DNA from: a virus
Strand: one strand, 5' to 3'
DNA length: 29,264 nucleotides
Virus record (IMG/VR): IMGVR_UViG_3300048672_000155
Location: 1-29,264 of that record
The position numbers and the translations under genes were made by a program. The notes below the pieces were generated by a model. That model saw only the letters and a list, made by a program, of their open reading frames with translations. It was not told the origin of the DNA and made no database searches. Positions 1,571 to 17,152 of the stretch are shown piece after piece (position 1 is the first letter of the stretch; every line of letters starts with the position of its first letter).

Positions 1571-3289
1571 ATGAATAAACTTACCGATCTTGACATGGCG
1601 AATAATCTTTTATGTGAGCACGATGAACTTTCTGAGGGTGTTAAAAAGAAGGTGGAAACTTATATAAACGGAGAATACTTTTCAACATCATTAACAGATA
1701 AGAAAGCGGATCAAGTTAAGCAAGATATGTTGAAAGCTATAGAAGATGGTTCATATAAATCTGGAACTTTTATGACTGGTTCTCTTAAGGATAAAATAGC
1801 GAAGATGATAGAAGATGGTAAAGAGATTAAGATTAAGACTTTTTACGTTAAAGAATCTACCGAAAGTATCAATGAGTCGGAACTTTCAGATGATGCCGCA
1901 AACGCTATTAGAGATGTGTTTTTTAGCAAGCAGTTCGATAAAAAGGTTCCTCGATCAATTATTGCAAGAGTTCTAAAATCTCCGAGATGGATTGATATGT
2001 ATGGGGAAGATGCGATTGAACAGGCTTGGGAAGAGTTGAGAGACGAGGGATATGTTCGATTGATTGGTGATAATTGGGTATGGGGATTGGAATTTGATGA
2101 GGATGTTGATGGTGGAAAAATTATAGAAGACGAGGATAAGGTTGATAGAATTTTCCTTGTTTACCTTAAGGGAGATTTTAAGGAGCCATTTGTTACCGAG
2201 TTTAATAATGTTGAAGTTGCTAAGAGAGAAATGAAAAAACATGATATGAGAGCCAAAGCAGAGATAGTTACTGCCAAGGACCCTCAAGAAGCGATTAATG
2301 TTTGGAAAGAAAAAAATATTGTCAAAGAAGAAGAGACTATAAAAGAAATGTCATCCAAAAGAGATATTTTTATTAGTGATGATGGCGCACTTAAATACTC
2401 TGTCTCTAAAAGTTATGAAACTGATGAGTGGGTAGCAAAAGCATATGTAAATGGAAAGTACGATGAAGGTAAGACTATTTATGAAACAGATAGAGAAAGT
2501 GCAGTAGGATCAGCAAAATATGAAATGACTCGTTGGAATAAATTACATCCGGTTGTCAAAGAAGAAGAGACGATCAAAGAAGGTGAAGAAGAGTATAACA
2601 TTCCAGATACCAATTTATTTGTTGTTGGTTTTGGAAGAGATATTAATGGAAATGTTGGAATAAGAGTTAAAACACCAAATGAGAGAGTCCGTTCGTTGTC
2701 TGTTGGCGATGTGTTTCAAGGTAAGACAGTTAGAGATGGTTATTGGAAAGATTCAAAACCAGAGGAAGTTGCCAAGATTAATGCGGCTCTTATTAGTTAT
2801 GTTGAAAGATTTGTAAAGGGACTTCCACTCAAAAAATATGGTGTTAAAGAAGAAGAGACGATCAAAGAAGTTACAGAATATCAAATAGGTTCAGATATTC
2901 TTTTCCGTAAATCGAGTGAAGATAATGATTGGCTAGCGGGAAAAATATCAACAATTTTGGCTAATGATGTTGTTTTGAAAGATGAAAAAGGAATAACTCA
3001 TATAATCAATAAGCAATTTGTCAGACTTGCTCCTGTTGCTCCTGAAAAAGAAGACGAGTCCATTGAGGAAAGTGAGAGATTTATTAACAAATTTCTTACA
3101 GAGGCTTTTACTTCGGATGATAATAAAAAAGTAAAAATAAAGTTTGATCCGATAAAAGGTGATACATATAAAATAAATGGAAGATCGGCAGAATTTGTAA
3201 CAAAAACAAGAGATAATCGGCTATGTTTTTATATGTTCGATGTTGATGCTCTTGAAAATTTTGATGCCGATGATTTTGTAGATGAATAA
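1571..3289 (+). CDS. candidate prohead polyprotein with repeated protease-site linkers
   Basis: This 572-residue protein has no homologue I recognise. Its striking feature is a near-identical linker, VKEEETIKE, at residues 251-259, 329-337 and 425-433, with a diverged fourth copy EKEDESIEE ending at residue 500. Each ends in I-X-E, the known cleavage rule of gp21-type proteases; further sites are SINE/S at 102 and FLTE/A at 511. Cutting at these would release segments of about 102, 157, 78, 96, 67-78 and 61 residues. Residues 103-180 look like a winged helix (DAIEQAWEELRDEGYVRLIG). The gene lies between protease gp21 and scaffold gp22, with its own late promoter. Start: ATG 1571 is 6 bases after GGAG (1561-1564); ATG 1568 and GTG 1559 fit less well. 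Packaging and cutting are inferred. Confidence 0.75.
   Translation: MNKLTDLDMANNLLCEHDELSEGVKKKVETYINGEYFSTSLTDKKADQVKQDMLKAIEDGSYKSGTFMTGSLKDKIAKMIEDGKEIKIKTFYVKESTESINESELSDDAANAIRDVFFSKQFDKKVPRSIIARVLKSPRWIDMYGEDAIEQAWEELRDEGYVRLIGDNWVWGLEFDEDVDGGKIIEDEDKVDRIFLVYLKGDFKEPFVTEFNNVEVAKREMKKHDMRAKAEIVTAKDPQEAINVWKEKNIVKEEETIKEMSSKRDIFISDDGALKYSVSKSYETDEWVAKAYVNGKYDEGKTIYETDRESAVGSAKYEMTRWNKLHPVVKEEETIKEGEEEYNIPDTNLFVVGFGRDINGNVGIRVKTPNERVRSLSVGDVFQGKTVRDGYWKDSKPEEVAKINAALISYVERFVKGLPLKKYGVKEEETIKEVTEYQIGSDILFRKSSEDNDWLAGKISTILANDVVLKDEKGITHIINKQFVRLAPVAPEKEDESIEESERFINKFLTEAFTSDDNKKVKIKFDPIKGDTYKINGRSAEFVTKTRDNRLCFYMFDVDALENFDADDFVDE
2321..2869 (+). repeat. three copies of a 27-base linker-coding repeat
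   Basis: Copies at 2321-2347, 2555-2581 and 2843-2869 encode VKEEETIKE and differ only at silent positions (gtc/gtt, act/acg, ata/atc). The intervening domains do not resemble each other, so the linker rather than whole modules has been copied or conserved. A fourth, diverged copy ends at 3070. Confidence 0.85.
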
Positions 3290-3312
3290 ATATTAAGTAA
3301 AAATATTAAAAT

Positions 3313-3334
3313 GATAAATAGTTATAGATAAATA
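3313..3334 (+). promoter_or_regulatory. tandem late promoters before the scaffold gene
   Basis: Two GATAAATA boxes, 3313-3320 and 3327-3334, lie 14 bases apart (GATAAATAGTTATAGATAAA). The first has the full AAAAT lead-in common to the other late promoters. It is the only doubled box in the window and would give two staggered starts for the scaffold mRNA. Confidence 0.7.
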
Positions 3335-4263: not shown

Positions 4264-5619
4264 ATGGTAGTAAACAAACGCGAACTTCTCAAAAAATGGG
4301 AAGGCGCAAAAGGCAACATGAGCATTAAGAATATTGCAAACAGTGATATTCGTGGTAACATGGCTGTAATGCTCGAAAACCAAGAGACCACCGATTTTAC
4401 CAACATGAGCCTCCTCCGTGAAGCCTCTGCTGGTGCGATCAATACTGGAACCCTTGGTGGTTATACTGACGGTGTAGCTGCAAGTGATAGCTATATTTTT
4501 AAACCCATCGCCCTCGCTCTCGTTCGGCGCACTTTCCCTGATCTCTTCGCACATAAAGTTTGCGGTGTTCAGGCAATGTCAACCCCTGTCGGTCTCGCTT
4601 ATGCTCTCCGTGCTACTTATGTAGACGGTAAGAATAATGAAGCCGCTTGGGATGTAGTTGATCAATATGCTGGTTATACTGGTTCACAGGTTGGTACTTC
4701 TGGAATTGGCTATACCTCGGCAAACAATGGTACAAATTATAACGGTTTCAACAACACTTCGGCCACTGGTGCTGCCACCTCTGCCGCTGAAGGTTGGACT
4801 CTCTCTGCAGGCCCTTGGGCGATTACCACAACCTCTGGAGCACTCTCTGTTCCTACTGGTTATGGACAGTGGCCTCAGCTTAAAATGAGAATCGATCAGA
4901 AACCAATTCAGGCTACCGAACGTAAACTTGCTGCAACTTACTCACTCGAATCGGCAATGGATGTACGAGCTATGCACGGTCTTGATGTTGAAAAAGAAAT
5001 GCTTAACTTTCTCCAATATGAAATTACCGCTGAAATGGATCGTGAAATTCTTACCGCAATTAAGACCGCTTCTATTGACACTGCTAATGGTGGTGCTGTT
5101 CTAACGTCAATCGATCTTACTGGTAACGGTACAGGCATTGATGGTCGTTGGAGTGGTGAGAAATATATGAACATTATTGCAAGTATTGTTCATCAGGGAA
5201 ATCAAATCGCTGTGGCAACTCGGCGTGGTGCGGGTAACTTTGTCATTGCTTCTCCTGCCATTTGTTCTGCTCTTCAGTGTGCTGGTCATCCTTGGGTAAA
5301 CCTCACCTCGAATGTCAATGCTGCTCACGTTATGGCAAGCGTTGGTAAACTTCAGGGTTCGATGGATATTTATAGGGATCAGTATTCGACAGTTGATTTT
5401 GCTACTGTTGGTTATAAAGGCCCTGGAATTAGTGATGCCGGGGTGATATTCTCGCCTTATGTTTTAGGATTAACCAACCGTGCTATCAACGCGCAGGACT
5501 TCTCTCCGTCAATTGGTGTGTTGTCGCGTTATGCAATATCGACCTCGCTTTTGGGTGCAGGAAGATATTACCGTACACTCAGTTTTTACAACACACCACG
5601 CTTAATCGCTGGTGCATAA
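4264..5619 (+). CDS. 23: major capsid protein (T4 gp23-like)
   Basis: This 451-residue HK97-fold protein forms the head shell. Family hallmarks include KRELLKKWEG at the N-terminus, IANSDIRGNMAVMLENQE (compare T4 IANSKQ..IFENQE), LVRRTFPDLFAHKVCGVQ and MSTPVGLAYALRA. A prohead-protease site, SLLRE/ASAG, lies after residue 53, so the mature protein should start at Ala54, as T4 gp23 is cut at FLTE/A. I chose ATG 4264, six bases after AAGGAG, over the open frame extending back to 4171, which covers the leader hairpin. Codon use is notably richer in C-ending codons than in neighbours, as expected for a very highly expressed gene. A terminator follows directly. Confidence 0.97.
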   Translation: MVVNKRELLKKWEGAKGNMSIKNIANSDIRGNMAVMLENQETTDFTNMSLLREASAGAINTGTLGGYTDGVAASDSYIFKPIALALVRRTFPDLFAHKVCGVQAMSTPVGLAYALRATYVDGKNNEAAWDVVDQYAGYTGSQVGTSGIGYTSANNGTNYNGFNNTSATGAATSAAEGWTLSAGPWAITTTSGALSVPTGYGQWPQLKMRIDQKPIQATERKLAATYSLESAMDVRAMHGLDVEKEMLNFLQYEITAEMDREILTAIKTASIDTANGGAVLTSIDLTGNGTGIDGRWSGEKYMNIIASIVHQGNQIAVATRRGAGNFVIASPAICSALQCAGHPWVNLTSNVNAAHVMASVGKLQGSMDIYRDQYSTVDFATVGYKGPGISDAGVIFSPYVLGLTNRAINAQDFSPSIGVLSRYAISTSLLGAGRYYRTLSFYNTPRLIAGA

Positions 5620-5653: not shown

Positions 5654-5690
5654 AAAGGAAGAGAGTTTGGTTGCTCTCTTCCTTTTTATT
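5654..5690 (+). terminator. rho-independent terminator after the major capsid gene
   Basis: A perfect 12-bp stem, AAAGGAAGAGAG (5654-5665) with CTCTCTTCCTTT (5674-5685), has an 8-base loop and is followed by a T-rich tail. It is the clearest terminator in the window and separates the capsid block from the accessory island. Confidence 0.92.
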
Positions 5691-5694
5691 TTAC

Positions 5695-5723
5695 TTGACA
5701 ACCTTAAAATAATTTGCTATCTT
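5695..5723 (+). promoter_or_regulatory. sigma70-like promoter for the accessory island
   Basis: TTGACA (5695-5700), a 17-base spacer and TATCTT (5718-5723) give a good host-type promoter directly after the terminator. No other clear sigma70-like promoter was found in the window. It would allow expression before the late programme. Confidence 0.65.
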
Positions 5724-5734
5724 AATATTAAAAT

Positions 5735-5742
5735 GATAAATA
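5735..5742 (+). promoter_or_regulatory. late promoter, GATAAATA box, before the structured RNA
   Basis: AAAATGATAAATAGTTATG follows the sigma70-like promoter. Initiation 6-7 bases after the box falls at 5748-5749, the first base of the structured RNA. Confidence 0.75.
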
Positions 5743-5747
5743 GTTAT

Positions 5748-5851
5748 GAGTCGTGGAAAGCTCACCCAAAAAATTAAAACAATCACTGTGAATCGACACT
5801 ATATCTTTTTGCATCTACTTCCACGGCTCTTGCAAAAAGAAGTGATTGTTT
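5748..5851 (+). ncRNA. pseudoknotted leader RNA or non-coding RNA
   Basis: Three long helices can form. Helix C pairs 5804-5813 with 5831-5840 (10 bp, perfect). Helix B pairs 5777-5787 with 5841-5851 (11 bp, perfect) and continues directly from C on the 3' side. Helix A pairs 5748-5758 with 5819-5829 (11 bp, one G-U), and its 3' strand lies wholly inside the 17-base loop of hairpin C, making a pseudoknot. A small GTG/CAC hairpin (5788-5790 with 5797-5799) may fill the B-C junction. The element ends 13 bases before the downstream ATG. I recognise no known riboswitch, ribozyme or toxin-antitoxin RNA. It could control translation of the nuclease gene or be a stable RNA. Confidence 0.72.
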
Positions 5852-5864
5852 ATTTTAGGAATTT

Positions 5865-7259
5865 ATGAAAAAAGGATTAACAAAATTAACTACAAAAGAT
5901 TTTATTAAACAAGCTACTAAAGTTCATGGTAAAACATATGATTATTCTCTTGTTGATTATAAAGGTACTAAGAAAAAAGTAAAAATAATTTGTAGAAAAC
6001 ATGGAATTTTTGAACAAGTTTATAGAGATCATGTTACACTTAAAATGAATTGTCCTGTTTGTTTTAAAGAGAGAAGAATTAATTCTAACCCTAAATTAAC
6101 AACAAAAGAGTTTATTAAAAGAGCCAAAGAAGTTCATGGAGATCGTTATGATTATTCTAAGGTTGATTATGTTAATTCTGGTGTTAAGGTTTGTATAATT
6201 TGTAAAGAACATGGAGAGTTTTGGCAATATCCTTTAAATCATACAAGAGCAAAAATGAAATGCCCCCCTTGTGCCATAATTCAAAGAGCTAATAAACGTA
6301 GGGGGACAACAGAACAATTTATTACAAAGGCTAAATTAACTCATGGGAACAAATATGATTACTCTAAATCTATTTTTACAGGAGTTGATGATAAATTAAT
6401 TATCATATGTCACAAGTTAGACAAAGATGGAAAAGAGCATGGAGAATTTAAACAAAGTGCTTATAGTCATGTTAATGGGTCTGGATGTTTTAGATGTGTT
6501 CATAAAAAATCCAACACTCAACCAAAAATTCTAACAACAAAAGGTTTTATAGAAAAGGCTGTTAAAATACATGGAAATCGTTATGACTATTCTAAGATTG
6601 ATTATAAAGGATATAATGTCCATGTTTGTATAATTTGTTTAGAGCATGGGGAATTTTGGCAAAGACCAGCAAGACATTTAACAAGTGAGGCTGATTGTCC
6701 AAAATGTGCAAAAATACAACACGCTTTAGATGCTTTTTTAACTCAAGAGGAATTTATAGAAAGTGCTAAAGAAGTTCATGGAGATCGTTATGATTATTCT
6801 CTTGTCAAATATACAGGAATGAAAAATAAGGTTACTATAAAATGTTCAAATGGTCATATATTTAAACAATCAGCAGGAACTCATATAAATGGTCACGGAT
6901 GTCCTAAATGTAACAGAAGTAAAGGCGAGATAATTATAGAAGATTGGTTGATAAAAAATAATATAAGGTACAAGCACGAGAAAACTTTTAAAGGATGTAA
7001 AGATAAAGGATTTTTAAGATTTGATTTTTACTTAATAGATTTTAATATGTGTGTAGAATTTGATGGTAAACAGCATTTTGAAGTTATAGGCAAATGGAAA
7101 AATAATGGTGATCTTGAAGGAACTATAAGAAGAGACAAAATAAAGACCAATTACTGCAAATCAAATAACATAAAACTTCTACGCTTCAATTACAAACAAT
7201 CAAAAGAAGAAATAACAAATAGATTGACTTTTAACTTCAAATCAACTATATTACAATGA
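5865..7259 (+). CDS. zinc-ribbon repeat protein with PD-(D/E)XK (Vsr-like) nuclease, probable homing endonuclease
   Basis: The 464-residue protein has five repeats of about 60-70 residues starting near 13, 83, 152, 228 and 297. Each has the pattern F-I-x-x-A...HG-x-x-YDYS...K-V-x-IIC...HG-x-F...H...C-P-x-C and probably binds one zinc. The C-terminus (residues 352-450) is a Vsr/PD-(D/E)XK-type nuclease: RFDFYL (Asp387), CVEFDGKQHF (Glu398, Asp400, Lys402), then a helix and IKLLRFNY. Repeat-plus-nuclease proteins of this kind occur in phages and giant viruses and are thought to be mobile endonucleases, with the repeats giving DNA specificity. ATG 5865 follows TAGGA (5856-5860). The gene is AT-rich relative to gp23 and overlaps the next nuclease gene by four bases. 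Confidence 0.8.
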   Translation: MKKGLTKLTTKDFIKQATKVHGKTYDYSLVDYKGTKKKVKIICRKHGIFEQVYRDHVTLKMNCPVCFKERRINSNPKLTTKEFIKRAKEVHGDRYDYSKVDYVNSGVKVCIICKEHGEFWQYPLNHTRAKMKCPPCAIIQRANKRRGTTEQFITKAKLTHGNKYDYSKSIFTGVDDKLIIICHKLDKDGKEHGEFKQSAYSHVNGSGCFRCVHKKSNTQPKILTTKGFIEKAVKIHGNRYDYSKIDYKGYNVHVCIICLEHGEFWQRPARHLTSEADCPKCAKIQHALDAFLTQEEFIESAKEVHGDRYDYSLVKYTGMKNKVTIKCSNGHIFKQSAGTHINGHGCPKCNRSKGEIIIEDWLIKNNIRYKHEKTFKGCKDKGFLRFDFYLIDFNMCVEFDGKQHFEVIGKWKNNGDLEGTIRRDKIKTNYCKSNNIKLLRFNYKQSKEEITNRLTFNFKSTILQ

Positions 7260-7345
7260 TGAAAACTAAATTACAAACTTTTATAGAACGTGCCAAATTG
7301 ATTCATGGAGATCGTTATGATTATTCTAAGGTTGACTATGTTAAT
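6135..7345 (+). repeat. 42-base repeat shared by the two adjacent nuclease genes
   Basis: Bases 6135-6176 (repeat 2 of the first nuclease) and 7304-7345 (repeat 1 of the second) match at 41 of 42 positions, and a partial copy starts at 6777. Both encode HGDRYDYSKVDYVN. The near-identity is greater than elsewhere in the domain repeats and suggests recent duplication or gene conversion. Confidence 0.8.
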
Positions 7346-8965
7346 GGAAAGACCAAGGTTATGATAATTTGTAGAAAAGAAGATCATGGTGAATTTATGC
7401 AGACACCGGATTCTCATATTTTTCAGAAGGCAAAGTGTCCGATCTGCAGCTATGAGAACCGTAACGAGAGTAGGATGGTTGATTGGCAAGAGGTTTTAAA
7501 AAGGATAGAAGAGGCTCATAAGGAAGATTTTAAATATTTGGATTTTTCTCAAGTTGTTTATAAAAATAGTCAAACGAAGATAAAGATAATCTGTAAAAAA
7601 GAAGATCATGGAGAATTTTGGCAGAGACCATCAGACACTTGTAGAGGAGTTAGTTGTCCTAAGTGCGGTAGAGATAAAACTAATAAGGCAATGACAGGAA
7701 CGACAGAGAAGTTTATAGAGGCTGCCAATAAGGTTCATAACAATATATATGATTATTCTAAGGTTGATTATGTTGGTGCTTATACGAAGGTTGAGATTAT
7801 ATGCGAACGACACGGATCATTTTTTCAGAACCCAGCAGACCATGTGAATAAAGAATCTAAATGTCCGAAGTGTTATAATGAGAGAAGGAGCAGTATTGGT
7901 AGATCAAATAAAGAAGAATTTATAAACAGTGGTATGATTAAGTATAATGGTACAGTTAAATATGACTTAGTAGAATATGTAAATTCTAAAACCAAAGTTA
8001 CGTTGATATGCGATAAAGGCCATCAATATGAGCAGACACCTAACGGTCATCTAAACGGCTATGGTTGTCATATGTGTTGTAATATAGGAGTTTCAAAATT
8101 AGAAAAAGAAGTTTATGATTTTATTAAGATTTATTACAATGACGCTATATCAAACACAAACGAAATATTATCGCCAAAAGAACTTGATATTTATATTCCA
8201 TATATTAAACTTGCTATAGAATTTAATGGTTTATATTGGCATAGTTCTGAATACAAAGATAAAAACGATCATAAATTAAAAACTGATATGTGCGAAAAAC
8301 TTGGAATCCACCTTGTACAAATATTTGAAGATGATTGGAAATATAAACAAGATATAGTAAAGTCTCGCCTATTAAATCTGATGGGTAAGAACGATAATAA
8401 AATAGCCGCACGTAAATGTGTTATTAAATTAGTAGATCAAAAAGTAGGCAAACAATTTCTTCAACAAAATCATTTACAGGGATACACTTCTTTTACTATT
8501 GGTTGTGGATTATTCTTTAATGATGAGTTAGTTTCTCTTATGACTTTTGGAAAGAGGCGAGTTTGTTTAGGTAAGAAAGAATCACAAGAGGGTGAATTTG
8601 AATTGATGAGATTTGCTAGTAAACTTAATACTTCTGTTATGGGTGCGGCAAATAAACTCTTTAAATATTTTGTAGACAATTATAAGCCAAAACATATAAT
8701 ATCTTACGCTGATAGATGTTGGACAATGAATAATGGATCTACTGTTTATGATAAGTTAGGATTTACTTTAGAAGGATTAACACCGCCGAATTATTATTAT
8801 GTTGTTGGAGATAAAAGAAAACATAGATTTGGTTTTAGAAAGGCAAAGTTAGTTGAGGATGGTTACGATGCTTCAATGACTGAGAGTGAAATTATGCAGG
8901 ATCGTGGAATACCTAAGATATATAATTCCGGCAATCTTAAATATTCCTTGACTTTCCCATCATAA
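7256..8965 (+). CDS. zinc-ribbon repeat protein with Vsr-like (EDxHD-type) endonuclease and C-terminal GNAT-like domain
   Basis: The 569-residue protein begins with four zinc-ribbon repeats (starting near 9, 80, 152 and 221; CPIC, CPKC, CPKC and CHMC pairs) like those of the preceding gene. Residues 280-372 form a Vsr-like nuclease with ELDIYIP (Glu309, Asp311), AIEFNGLYWHSS (Glu322, His329) and H339-K-L-K-T-D344, the EDxHD pattern described for phage homing endonucleases. Residues 388-530 have a different fold, with MRFASKLNTSVMGAANKLF, VYDKLGFTLEG and KHRFGFRK reminiscent of GNAT-type acyltransferases. That last assignment is tentative. The ATG overlaps the previous stop (ATGA), so the two nucleases are probably translationally coupled, both behind the structured RNA. 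The repeats probably recognise DNA. Confidence 0.8.
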   Translation: MMKTKLQTFIERAKLIHGDRYDYSKVDYVNGKTKVMIICRKEDHGEFMQTPDSHIFQKAKCPICSYENRNESRMVDWQEVLKRIEEAHKEDFKYLDFSQVVYKNSQTKIKIICKKEDHGEFWQRPSDTCRGVSCPKCGRDKTNKAMTGTTEKFIEAANKVHNNIYDYSKVDYVGAYTKVEIICERHGSFFQNPADHVNKESKCPKCYNERRSSIGRSNKEEFINSGMIKYNGTVKYDLVEYVNSKTKVTLICDKGHQYEQTPNGHLNGYGCHMCCNIGVSKLEKEVYDFIKIYYNDAISNTNEILSPKELDIYIPYIKLAIEFNGLYWHSSEYKDKNDHKLKTDMCEKLGIHLVQIFEDDWKYKQDIVKSRLLNLMGKNDNKIAARKCVIKLVDQKVGKQFLQQNHLQGYTSFTIGCGLFFNDELVSLMTFGKRRVCLGKKESQEGEFELMRFASKLNTSVMGAANKLFKYFVDNYKPKHIISYADRCWTMNNGSTVYDKLGFTLEGLTPPNYYYVVGDKRKHRFGFRKAKLVEDGYDASMTESEIMQDRGIPKIYNSGNLKYSLTFPS

Positions 8966-9020: not shown

Positions 9021-10424
9021 ATGTCAGAAGTATCTCAGAATTATGATAACAAAGCCATAACGGAATCAGGACTTTCAAACGAGGAGATAGTAGATCGTTG
9101 TATTAAATTGAATTACCGCTATTTAAAACTTGGATTGATGGGGCCGATGTATGGTGCTAAGAATGGGTTGAGAACGAGTCTGAAGGATGGGAGATTACTT
9201 TATAGTGTTTCTGAGGATAAAAAGTTCATAGGATTTCTTCTTTGGAATATTTTAAAAAGGACAAATACTATTGATATAAGAAAGGTTGCTATTGAAGAGG
9301 ATTTTAAATATCAAGGTTTTGGAAAGAAGTTATATGAGCAGGTGGTTAATATTTGTAAAGAGAAGAATATTAATTTCATAAGAGCCAAAGCATCAAACCT
9401 TAACACAGATTCTCATAAATGGTATACTGGTTTGGGGTTTATAAAGGTTGATGAAGGAGATAACACAGTAACTTTTATTAAGGAATTGAACGGCAAGAAA
9501 TATGAACCAATAGTAAAAAAAGATAATAGTGTTAAGCCAGTTAAATTAGAATGGGTGATAGGTGAAGAAGCTCCTAAAGAGTTTGAAGATATTGTTAATT
9601 TTTTTGATGAAGAGGAAAGAAAAAATGATAACGGGGAAGTGACTCCTTGGATATTTAAAAATGATTTGACTCTATTTAAAAAACAATATGATAGATTATG
9701 CAGGGGAACAATTTTACCAACAAATCGCCACATTGCTTGTTTAGACCTTATGGAATTTTATCATAAGCAGATGTGGTTTATGAATGGAATGGCATCTATA
9801 TTGGAATGGCAGAACAACAAAAAGCATATAATAAATAACAGGCTTAAATATGTTGATCTGCAGCCGAGAGCATTGAGAAGGTATTTTAGAATTTGTTATA
9901 TGGTGCCTAATTTGTTTCAAGATAATGTTGCTCGTTATATGTCTTCCGAGATTGTTGGAAATTTAATATATGATCCTTTTGCGGGGTTCGGTGGTAGAAT
10001 GTTGGGTGTTTCTTCTATGGGTAAACAATACATAGGAAATGATATTAACGCTCTATCTGTCAACGCAAACAATCAAATTATAAGAGATATTGGTTTAAAG
10101 AATGTTGAAGTTTTGTGGAGGGATAGTAGAAATTTTGAAATAGAGTGTGACGGTCTTATAACTTCGCCTCCGTTTTATAATAAAGATGTTTACAAAGAAG
10201 ATAGTGAATTTAAGTCTCTTGATGATTTTAAAACATTTATTCATGATATTTTTTGTAAAGTTAAAGTAAGAGATAAAGCAATCATAGACTTTAAAGAAAA
10301 TAAACACTGCTCTCTTGATGATTTTGAAAGTGCTTTGCCGTTTAAAAATATAGAGAGAAAACAACATAATTTTAACGGTATGAAAAATCACGGATCTATA
10401 CATACTTGGTTCTATTGCTCATAA
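9021..10424 (+). CDS. GNAT acetyltransferase - DNA methyltransferase fusion
   Basis: This 467-residue protein joins two enzymes. Residues 30-155 are a GNAT domain: KFIGFLLWNI, IDIRKVAIEEDF, the acetyl-CoA loop YQGFGKKL (97-104) and WYTGLGFIKV. Residues 270-467 are a Rossmann methyltransferase: DPFAGFGGRMLG (318-329, S-adenosylmethionine loop), GNDIN (339-343) and the catalytic TSPPFY (381-386), an S-P-P-F variant typical of amino-methyltransferases acting on adenine N6 or cytosine N4. The middle (RLKYVDLQPRALRRYFRICY) may contact substrate. Chemistry on DNA bases is the simplest reading; whether both domains act on one base is unknown. It follows the nuclease pair by 55 bases and closes the accessory island. 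ATG 9021 follows AAAGGAT. Domain calls are firm, substrate is not. Confidence 0.8.
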   Translation: MSEVSQNYDNKAITESGLSNEEIVDRCIKLNYRYLKLGLMGPMYGAKNGLRTSLKDGRLLYSVSEDKKFIGFLLWNILKRTNTIDIRKVAIEEDFKYQGFGKKLYEQVVNICKEKNINFIRAKASNLNTDSHKWYTGLGFIKVDEGDNTVTFIKELNGKKYEPIVKKDNSVKPVKLEWVIGEEAPKEFEDIVNFFDEEERKNDNGEVTPWIFKNDLTLFKKQYDRLCRGTILPTNRHIACLDLMEFYHKQMWFMNGMASILEWQNNKKHIINNRLKYVDLQPRALRRYFRICYMVPNLFQDNVARYMSSEIVGNLIYDPFAGFGGRMLGVSSMGKQYIGNDINALSVNANNQIIRDIGLKNVEVLWRDSRNFEIECDGLITSPPFYNKDVYKEDSEFKSLDDFKTFIHDIFCKVKVRDKAIIDFKENKHCSLDDFESALPFKNIERKQHNFNGMKNHGSIHTWFYCS

Positions 10425-14423: not shown

Positions 14424-14429
14424 TTGATA

Positions 14430-15032
14430 ATGTTTGAAAAGAATAAAAATTTGAGATCCAAGAATGAGACTGTTAAATTTACTCAAGAAATGTTAGAAGA
14501 GTATATGAGATGTTCTGAAGATATTTTATATTTTGCTAGCAAGTATTATTACATTACAACTATTGACTATGGGAAGATTATTATACCTTTGTGGGATTTT
14601 CAAAAAAAGGTATTGCTTGCTATGCAGAATCCCCCCAATGGTAAGAGACATACGATAATGAATTTTTCAAGACAATCAGGCAAAACAACTTTATCTTCTA
14701 TATTTTTGTTACATCAAGCATTATTTAAAACTAATCAAGTTTTTGCAATTCTAGCCAACCGAGAAAAAACCGCCATAGAAATTTTAAGACGAATAAAAGA
14801 TGCTTATGAAATGCTTCCTTTATGGTTACAGCAAGGTGTTGTTGAATGGGCTAAAGGTAAAATTGCGTTAGAAAATGGTTGTGTTATATTAGCGTCATCA
14901 ACATCATCAACGGCAATCAGAGGATATACTATAAATTGCGTTACTGCTCCGACAAAAGTAACAGTAAGGAATAAAAAAACAGGTAAGATTGAAGAGATGT
15001 CTATAAAAGAATTGGAGAAGTGTTTATGTTAA
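14430..15032 (+). CDS. 17: terminase large subunit N-half with 31-residue split-intein N-fragment
   Basis: The first 169 residues are the N-terminal part of the TerL packaging ATPase: adenine-binding region PLWDFQKKVL (53-62), Walker A SRQSGKTT (80-87) and SSTAIRGYTIN just before the expected Walker B strand. At Cys170 (base 14937) an intein block A begins (CVTAPTKVTVRNKKTGKIEE) and the frame stops after only 31 intein residues. The rest of the protein is in the -1 frame in the next gene, whose ATG (15026) overlaps this stop. ATG 14430 after AAAGGA is preferred to TTG 14424. Activity requires trans-splicing with the downstream product. A true split gene and a frameshifted continuous intein both fit; the new ribosome site favours the former. 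Confidence 0.9.
   Translation: MFEKNKNLRSKNETVKFTQEMLEEYMRCSEDILYFASKYYYITTIDYGKIIIPLWDFQKKVLLAMQNPPNGKRHTIMNFSRQSGKTTLSSIFLLHQALFKTNQVFAILANREKTAIEILRRIKDAYEMLPLWLQQGVVEWAKGKIALENGCVILASSTSSTAIRGYTINCVTAPTKVTVRNKKTGKIEEMSIKELEKCLC
14937..15029 (+). other. split intein N-fragment
   Basis: There are 31 codons from the splice-junction Cys to the stop. Features are Cys1, the T-K-V of block A at residues 6-8, and the turn RNKKTGKIEE leading to MSIKEL. Block B (T-x-x-H) is absent here and lies in the other gene. Such short N-fragments characterise atypically split inteins, of which AceL-TerL (25 residues), also in a TerL gene, is the known example. Confidence 0.88.
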
Positions 15033-16132
15033 AAAGAAACGATCTTGATATTGAAGAGCATAAGAAATTTATTTATGCTTATAAAATTACTAATACGATA
15101 GACAATACTATATATGTAGGTATTCACGGTACAAATAATTTAGATGATGGGTATATGGGTTCTGGAAGTTATCTTAAGAGAGCAATTAAAAAGTATGGAA
15201 GAAAAAAATTTACAAAAGAGATACTTCAATATTTTAAATCGTATAAAGAGGCATTAGATTATGAGGCTGTAATAGTAACAAAAGAGTTTATAGAGCGTCA
15301 TGATACTTATAATCTTAAAGAGGGTGGTTTTTGTAATTATGAGTGGTCTGATGAATATAAAAGAAATCAATCTATAGCTATAAGAGGAAGTGAACTATGT
15401 AGAAATAAAATAAAAATTCTTAATAAAAATCCAGAGAAAATAAGAAAAATGGCAGAATCTCACACAGGAATGAAAAGAACGGAAGAAAGTAAAAAGAAAA
15501 TGTCTGATGCAGGAAAAGGAAAGCATGATGGTATTTTGAATGGTTGGTTTAAAGGATGGTATATAACTCCTAAAGGAAAGTTTGAAAGTTTACGAAAAGC
15601 AGGTAAAGAATTTGATAGTTGTGATGCTAATATAGATAATTGGTGTGTTAGATTAAATTCTAAAAAAATAGTTAAAGGAACAATATTAAGAAGACCTGAT
15701 TTGTTTGATTTGTCTATGTTAGGTAAAACTTGGAAAGAACTTGGATGGGGGTTTGATGCTGCTACTAAAAAAGAAAGAAAAGTTAAATATGACACTCTTA
15801 AAGAAAACACAGAATATGAAATACTAACATCCGAAGGTTTTAAGGATTTTAAGGGTATTGTAACTTCTAAAGCAGCAACATTAATTTTAACATTTGATGA
15901 TAATAGCACTTTAGAATGTACAAAAAAACATAGAATATTTTATAAGACAAAAGTAGGAAAGAGATATAAATATGCACAATCTTTCAAAATTGGTGATAAT
16001 GTTGTAAGTAAGGACGGGTTCAAAACAATAATAAAAATAGAAAAAGTTCAAGGAGCATATCAAACAGTATATGAAATATTGCAAGTTTCTGACAATAATG
16101 AATACTATACAAATGATATTTTGAGCCACAAT
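15026..16132 (+). other. split intein C-fragment carrying a GIY-YIG homing endonuclease
   Basis: It runs from the start codon to the terminal Asn before Cys370. The last 21 residues contain EILQVSDNNEYYTNDIL and end S-H-N, giving the penultimate His and terminal Asn needed for cyclisation; T299-K-K-H302 is block B. Splicing would release this 369-residue piece as an endonuclease fused to the intein C-domain. Confidence 0.88.
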
Positions 16133-17152
16133 TGTCTTGTATTAGACGAGTATGCTCATGTGCCACCAAATATACAGGATGATTTTATGTCTTCTGTAAT
16201 ACCCACAACATCATCGGGAAAAACTTCTAAGATTATTATTATGTCAACTCCGAATGGTACAGAGATGTTTTATAATATTTGGACTGCTGCTGTTCGTGGT
16301 CAAAATTCTTATTATCCTATTAAAGTATTATGGTCTGACATTCCTGGTAGAGATGCTGCTTGGCGAAAGAGAATAATAGATGATCTTCCTGGTGGACTCG
16401 ATAGTTTTCTCCAAGAGTATGATTGTCGTTTTATAGGATCAGCAAACTCTCTAATTGACACAGATAAATTAGAAAAATTCAAATATAAACCATACTTAGA
16501 TACAAAATGGAGCGGTTTGATGAAGATTTATGAGTACCCTATAGTTGGCTGTAAATACGTGATAGGGGTTGACACTGCAGGAGGTGGTGGTCAACTTAAA
16601 TCAAATTATTCAGTAATTCAGGTAATAAAGATCAAAAGTAAACAAGATTTGGAACAGGTGGCTATTTATAGATGCAACACAGTAAACCCATATGATTTTG
16701 CTATTATTGTTAAGGATGTATCAAACTATTATAACGATGCGTCTGCTATGATAGAAAATAATGCAGACGTTGGTGGAATATTATTGGCGACACTTTGGAA
16801 CGACTTGGAGTTTGATAAGATAGTAAATATATCTCCGAAGTGGCTAGGTGTTAAAGCTACATCAATAACAAAGAGCGAAGGTAATATGTTATTGAAGAGA
16901 TACCTTGAGTCGGGTTGGTTGACATTGTGGGATAAGGATACAATACATGAGTTAAGTATGTATCAAGAGGTTCGTTTGGGAATTTTTAAGGCACAAAGGG
17001 ACAGTGATTTTGATGATTGTGTTACTTCTCTTATTTGGGCTGTTTATTATACCAAGACGGATGAATTTTCTGATTTAAACATGGATGATATTTATAGACC
17101 AGATGTTGTGAGAGATGATAAGAATTATGAGATGATGGCTATTTTTGATTGA
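15026..17152 (+). CDS. 17: GIY-YIG endonuclease - intein C-fragment - terminase large subunit C-half
   Basis: This 708-residue protein has three parts. Residues 14-101 are a GIY-YIG nuclease (FIYAYKITNTIDNTIYVGIHG, then MGSGSYLKRAIKKYG and NLKEGG), followed by NUMOD3-like ESHTGMKRTEESKKKMSDAG (144-163) and a further probable DNA-binding segment ending GKTWKELGWGF. Residues about 252-369 are the intein C-fragment, with block B CTKKH (298-302) and a terminus ILSHN, then Cys370 as the +1 residue. Residues 370-708 are TerL: Walker B LVLDEYA, coupling motif STPNG, and RNase H-like nuclease motifs GVDTAGG, IENNAD and DFDDCVTSLIWA. Joined to the N-half, the extein is 508 residues, a normal TerL. GGAG (15014-15017) eight bases before ATG 15026 supports independent initiation over the GTG at 15020. 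Confidence 0.9.
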   Translation: MLKRNDLDIEEHKKFIYAYKITNTIDNTIYVGIHGTNNLDDGYMGSGSYLKRAIKKYGRKKFTKEILQYFKSYKEALDYEAVIVTKEFIERHDTYNLKEGGFCNYEWSDEYKRNQSIAIRGSELCRNKIKILNKNPEKIRKMAESHTGMKRTEESKKKMSDAGKGKHDGILNGWFKGWYITPKGKFESLRKAGKEFDSCDANIDNWCVRLNSKKIVKGTILRRPDLFDLSMLGKTWKELGWGFDAATKKERKVKYDTLKENTEYEILTSEGFKDFKGIVTSKAATLILTFDDNSTLECTKKHRIFYKTKVGKRYKYAQSFKIGDNVVSKDGFKTIIKIEKVQGAYQTVYEILQVSDNNEYYTNDILSHNCLVLDEYAHVPPNIQDDFMSSVIPTTSSGKTSKIIIMSTPNGTEMFYNIWTAAVRGQNSYYPIKVLWSDIPGRDAAWRKRIIDDLPGGLDSFLQEYDCRFIGSANSLIDTDKLEKFKYKPYLDTKWSGLMKIYEYPIVGCKYVIGVDTAGGGGQLKSNYSVIQVIKIKSKQDLEQVAIYRCNTVNPYDFAIIVKDVSNYYNDASAMIENNADVGGILLATLWNDLEFDKIVNISPKWLGVKATSITKSEGNMLLKRYLESGWLTLWDKDTIHELSMYQEVRLGIFKAQRDSDFDDCVTSLIWAVYYTKTDEFSDLNMDDIYRPDVVRDDKNYEMMAIFD

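Follow-up and report, generated by a model that had tools for sequence, protein, structure and literature searches.

What is the RNA that begins at a predicted late transcription start behind the capsid gene of a T4-type phage, and what does it do for the genes that follow it? We analyzed a linear viral record of 29 kb (IMGVR_UViG_3300048672_000155, 29,264 nucleotides, hereafter the window) carrying prohead scaffold, gp23-type major capsid protein and T4-like terminase genes, with the T4_CASP and Gp23 neighbours identified by Pfam. An initial annotation had proposed a compact pseudoknotted RNA in this record and had suggested that it might regulate the downstream nuclease pair, be a mobile-element RNA, or act alone.

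Gene neighbourhood of the leader

Between 5619 and 5865 the order was capsid terminator, sigma-70-like match, GATAAATA box, RNA and then endonuclease gene 1 (Table 1). The nuclease pair recognized earlier proved to consist of Hef-type homing endonucleases by PHROG matches. The product of gene 1 also matched Pfam DUF4379 above the cut-off, and the DNA of gene 2 matched Campylobacter phage Hef genes. The two genes overlap by 4 nt, so translational coupling is probable.

Relatives of the capsid protein aligned only from residue 22-39 of the longer ORF, and its true start is likely ATG 4264 behind AAGGAG, not GTG 4171. GTG 4171 sits 2 nt past a predicted late start. The capsid leader counted from ATG 4264 is 95 nt long and showed no unusual structure.

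Several other features were seen in the window. ORF 129-698, directly upstream of the first late box, encodes an HNH-like endonuclease with weak relatives (32-35%) in two capsid-related loci. ORF 9021-10424, beside the homing endonucleases, encodes a GNAT acetyltransferase domain fused with a DNA-methyltransferase-like region. The large subunit of the T4-type terminase (14424-17152) is split by an interruption: an intein-N-like stretch (NCVTAPTKVTV...) closes ORF 14424-15032, and ORF 15020-17152, in another frame that overlaps the first by 13 nt, starts with a GIY-YIG-like domain, after which the terminase resumes behind an intein-C-like ...ILSHNC. The interruption is either a frameshift or a split intein that carries an endonuclease.

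Table 1. Features of the leader and its surroundings in the window.
Feature	Position	Strand	Description
gp23-type major capsid protein gene	4264..5619	+	Pfam Gp23 E 7e-81; ORF listed from 4171
Capsid-gene intrinsic terminator	5654..5685	+	terminator scan: 13-bp stem, then TTATTTTACT
Sigma-70-like promoter TTGACA-17-TATCTT	5695..5723	+	consensus match only
T4-type late promoter box GATAAATA	5735..5742	+	family of sites, shared context, purine at +1
Helix A	5748-5758/5819-5829	+	11 bp, one G-U (U5751-G5826)
Linker	5759..5776	+	18 nt; C5766-C5767 pairable with Shine-Dalgarno G5858-G5859 in the knot-free fold
Helix B	5777-5787/5841-5851	+	11 bp, all Watson-Crick
Small fourth stem (stem-loop GUG-AAUCGA-CAC)	5788..5799	+	pairs 5788-5790/5797-5799 at the three-way junction; minimum-energy fold
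Helix C	5804-5813/5831-5840	+	10 bp, all Watson-Crick
Shine-Dalgarno AGGA	5857..5860	+	5 nt past helix B end, 4 nt before ATG 5865
Hef-type homing endonuclease gene 1	5865..7259	+	PHROG 559 endonuclease E 1e-87; PHROG 9084 homing endonuclease E 2e-25
Hef-type homing endonuclease gene 2	7256..8965	+	PHROG 3339 homing endonuclease E 2e-109

Late promoter and predicted transcription start

The box at 5735, from which the start of the RNA had originally been predicted, belongs to a genuine family of T4-type late promoters. GATAAATA occurred 13 times against 3.25 expected, always on the + (coding) strand (702-29172), and eight copies shared the context AAAT-GATAAATA-GTT with a purine 6 nt past the box. 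With the usual spacing of T4 late promoters, the +1 of the 5735 box would be G5748, which is the first base of helix A, as the initial annotation had expected. The late box of this phage is GATAAATA, in place of the T4 TATAAATA; the scaffold gene has a pair of them in front of it, at 3313 and 3327, with a spacing of 14 nt.

Related phages often have a late box, mostly TATAAATA, and a small gene behind their capsid terminator. The late box is probably ancestral, with the nuclease genes inserted. The sigma-70-like promoter would transcribe the RNA as well, and the count of such consensus matches was not above chance. At 117 nt, the nuclease leader is long beside those of the other late genes of the window.

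Architecture of the fold and comparison with chance

All three helices of the proposed RNA were present, with the strands in the order A-B-C-A'-C'-B'. Helix C is nested in helix B, and A' lies within the loop of C, which creates the pseudoknot; the 17-nt loop of helix C consists of 5 nt, the 11 nt of A' and 1 nt. The architecture is that of a hairpin whose loop pairs to an upstream strand. The wobble pair favours an RNA from the + strand, since an RNA from the opposite strand would have an A-C mismatch in its place. The 11 bp of helix A are crossed by just 5 nt, and on this geometry perhaps 8-10 of the 11 pairs would form. A tRNA check found no tRNA.

The initial annotation had judged three such helices unlikely to arise by chance, and the statistics bear this out. 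When the local 122 nt were shuffled 20,000 times with dinucleotides preserved, no shuffle reached a descriptor score of 27. We also scanned viral loci (3.0 Mb, both strands) for the same helix order within 110 nt. The arrangement A-B-C-A'-C'-B' at this score and span occurred once in 3,006,610 bases, at the present site, with a score of 31.5 against 27.5 for the runner-up (two sites of at least 27 in all); because the descriptor was chosen with the structure already in view, the uniqueness figure errs on the favourable side, though the margin remains large. Even the knot-free fold gave a z score of -3.5 to -3.9. As an internal control, we folded the 110 nt that begin each of the leaders behind eight strong late promoters: this leader had a z score of -3.85 and the remaining seven lay between -0.4 and +1.2, so that only the nuclease leader was unusually structured. 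The statistical evidence is strong that the fold is well beyond chance: it is a real structure, and it is well placed.

Search for relatives

No match to Rfam was found in the window at the gathering threshold, and at permissive thresholds matches were far below the cut-off (best E 4.5), in keeping with the earlier statement that no known RNA family fits. A blastn search against phages returned weak AT-rich matches only. Pattern scans of viral contigs gave 57 chance matches for the helix A pair, 50 matches for B and A' with no relative among them, two GC-rich matches with no resemblance for the small stem and A', and none for C and B'; a pattern scan of GTDB bacterial genomes gave 45 matches and no relative. 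A copy is caught by such scans only if it has retained the letters chosen for the pattern, and a diverged RNA of the same fold escapes them. About 40 leaders of related Hef genes, from loci also covered by the descriptor scan, contained no relative of the RNA. The capsid relatives are at most 64% identical, so close relatives may be missing from the collections, and with no homologue found, covariation is unavailable.

Three candidates from the scans were rejected. One locus (L100) shared GTCGTGGAA...TTCCACGGC with helix A, but these letters were imposed by the search pattern, and the locus folds as nested stems resembling c4-2, whereas the window has no c4 match. The second (L123) lies opposite an intact ORF. 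The third (L184) has all three pairings, yet sits inside a TsaB-like coding sequence and is a chance product of a very large scan. L100 itself (3262-3330 in IMGVR_UViG_3300035698_003928) is a c4-2-like antisense RNA (38 bits, cut-off 41, E 5.5e-7) that directly precedes a small phage gene.

We also considered a Hef operator, that is, a copy of the homing site over the promoter as in I-TevI, and rejected it: no 16/20 match linked the RNA to any other part of the window, apart from one AT-rich site. The homing site may lie outside the window.

Hef genes at the same site in related phages

Relatives of Hef gene 2 were carried by 7 of the 23 capsid-related loci, three of the seven being near copies of one another. 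They were 44-56% identical over the matched part and lay about 0.7-1 kb after the capsid gene. In this phage group, Hef-type genes have landed repeatedly at the site just behind the gp23-type capsid gene (L007, L012, L013, L014, L016, L017 and L019). The leaders of the related Hef genes, including those at the same site, were short or plain and had no such structure. The RNA is thus no constant component of a Hef cassette at this site, and Hef expression does not need it. The suggestion of a mobile-element RNA is not supported by this comparison, as relatives carry a Hef gene at the same post-capsid site without the RNA.

Comparison with known leader structures

Translation of I-TevI and Aeh1 mobE is limited by RNA structures, and RNA structures have been found or implicated for I-TevII, I-TevIII and segB (PMC2988022, PMC3014915). 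In T4-type homing endonuclease genes, late promoters are placed so that the late mRNA escapes the structure (PMC2988022, PMC3014915). The window shares with this group a leader structure and a late promoter at a T4-type homing endonuclease gene, with a stable structure directly upstream of the gene and next to the Shine-Dalgarno. However, its late promoter (GATAAATA, 5735-5742) lies upstream of the structure, so that the late mRNA carries all of it rather than escaping, and the Shine-Dalgarno would be only weakly covered.

Closest in layout comes seg43 of Aeromonas phage 25, which has a very stable hairpin directly upstream of its RBS that leaves the RBS uncovered (PMC2988022). When we read and folded the seg43 leader (NC_008208), it formed a single 9-bp hairpin. 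In both T4-type phages a very stable structure abuts the Shine-Dalgarno of a homing endonuclease gene, but the seg43 leader has no pseudoknot, and the stretch read contained no late promoter box.

A knot is known from the gene 32 leader of T4, T2 and RB69, in a region 67 nt upstream of the start codon, and is thought to nucleate gp32 binding (PMC3014915). The gene 32 leader and the present RNA are both pseudoknots in a T4-type mRNA leader upstream of a translation start. They differ in that the gene 32 knot has two stems against three long helices here, and the downstream gene here encodes an endonuclease, not the ssDNA-binding protein of gene 32. The c4-2 antisense RNA (Rfam RF02944) is similar only by way of the L100 match, and the window is unmatched to c4. 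Overall, the leader resembles the T4-type leader-structure group at most in part and is not a proven member of it. RNA control of homing endonuclease translation is documented in T4-type phages; the present fold is not known to have been described for them.

Competing folds and proposed translational control

Of the three roles originally suggested, regulation of the nuclease pair fits best, as an inferred function. We give an even chance to the reading that the late mRNA for the two Hef-type homing endonucleases has in this RNA a pseudoknotted 5' leader by which its translation is tuned.

The computed pairing alternatives bear on how such tuning might work. The knot-free fold of 5748-5880 totalled -27.4 kcal/mol, and in the knot-free ensemble the Shine-Dalgarno GG had an unpaired probability of 0.18-0.20 (about 80% paired); this rose to 0.95-0.98 when the linker was blocked in the calculation. 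Extension of helix B over the Shine-Dalgarno took the energy from -22.0 to -24.0, a gain of only about 2 kcal/mol, and gating by this extension would therefore be weak. Helix A closed by a tetraloop was worth about -17 kcal/mol, and B and C with the small stem about -22. Even with a pseudoknot penalty near 10 deducted, the knot can compete with the knot-free fold, and the two differ by no more than the error of such estimates. In folding of the growing chain, helix A was complete once base 5830 had been added (-18.4 kcal/mol), when B and C could not yet close.

We propose that the late promoter would give an RNA starting at G5748, in which helix A would form first during transcription and B and C would close around A afterwards to produce the knot. 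With 5 nt between its end and the Shine-Dalgarno, the structure would border on the 30S footprint and would set translation of the pair. In the knotted state the linker would be stretched along C and B, out of reach of the Shine-Dalgarno on geometric grounds, and a knot formed as the leader is made would leave the translation start open but crowded. In the knot-free alternative, B would zip through the U-rich stretch and the Shine-Dalgarno GG would pair with C5766-C5767. Melting A, or preventing its formation, would thus be predicted to close the start, the direction of this effect following from the model. The 5' end held in a helix may also protect the mRNA.

Alternative explanations

5'-terminal structure protects mRNA in E. 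coli. The fold might be a 5'-end stability element whose buried first nucleotide blocks decay of the RppH/RNase E type, so that the endonuclease message is longer-lived with no translation switch. The start of helix A at the predicted +1 and the great stability of the whole fold for its composition are consistent with this, but a simple hairpin would suffice for protection, and the knot and its closeness to the Shine-Dalgarno would be left unexplained; we regard this reading as rather unlikely. The leader could also be a small RNA in its own right, about 105-110 nt long with its end in the U-rich 5849-5856, and would then act in trans on RNA or protein of the phage or the host. This would fit the promoter of its own, the compact fold, the GUUUAUUUU after helix B and the length of the leader. 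The initial suggestion of a free RNA of about 105 nt is possible to that extent, but the site was not flagged in the terminator scan (which sees loops of 3-8 nt only), the base of helix B is A/U-rich, the Shine-Dalgarno and ATG of the nuclease gene follow immediately, and no relative was seen in any phage searched, which together make a separate RNA distinctly unlikely. Autoregulation would be a third way to use the knot, with Hef or another phage protein binding it and repressing translation as in T4 gene 32. The gene 32 leader pseudoknot does give translational autocontrol (PMC3014915), and I-TevI of T4 autoregulates, though via a DNA operator (PMC2988022). However, the present fold is unlike the two-stem gene 32 knot and its ligand is putative, and we consider such an operator very doubtful.

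It is highly improbable that the structure arose by chance or is a functionless remnant, for example of past insertions or deletions at the Hef site. Such an origin would agree with its being a singleton with neither relative nor covariation, but it has against it the shuffles and the 3 Mb of comparable DNA, the near-perfect pairing of three helices in which the sole non-Watson-Crick pair is an RNA-compatible G-U, and the exact placement between promoter and Shine-Dalgarno. We also weighed whether the RNA is the first member seen of an undescribed class of pseudoknotted phage RNAs, as a switch, gated by a ligand or a protein, that gives up the knot in exchange for Shine-Dalgarno pairing in a homing endonuclease message or as a discrete trans-acting late small RNA, and we judge this unlikely.

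Implications for homing endonuclease expression in T4-type phages

T4-type phages restrain their homing endonucleases with leader RNA structures, and those described so far are hairpins. If tuning by a pseudoknotted leader is correct, a knot that begins with the late mRNA itself and takes up the whole leader would solve this differently, with control exerted on the late transcripts themselves. According to a review of 2010, the gene 32 knot was perhaps the sole viral pseudoknot with a known part in translational autoregulation (PMC3014915); were the RNA of this phage to act in that way, it would be a second one beside gene 32.
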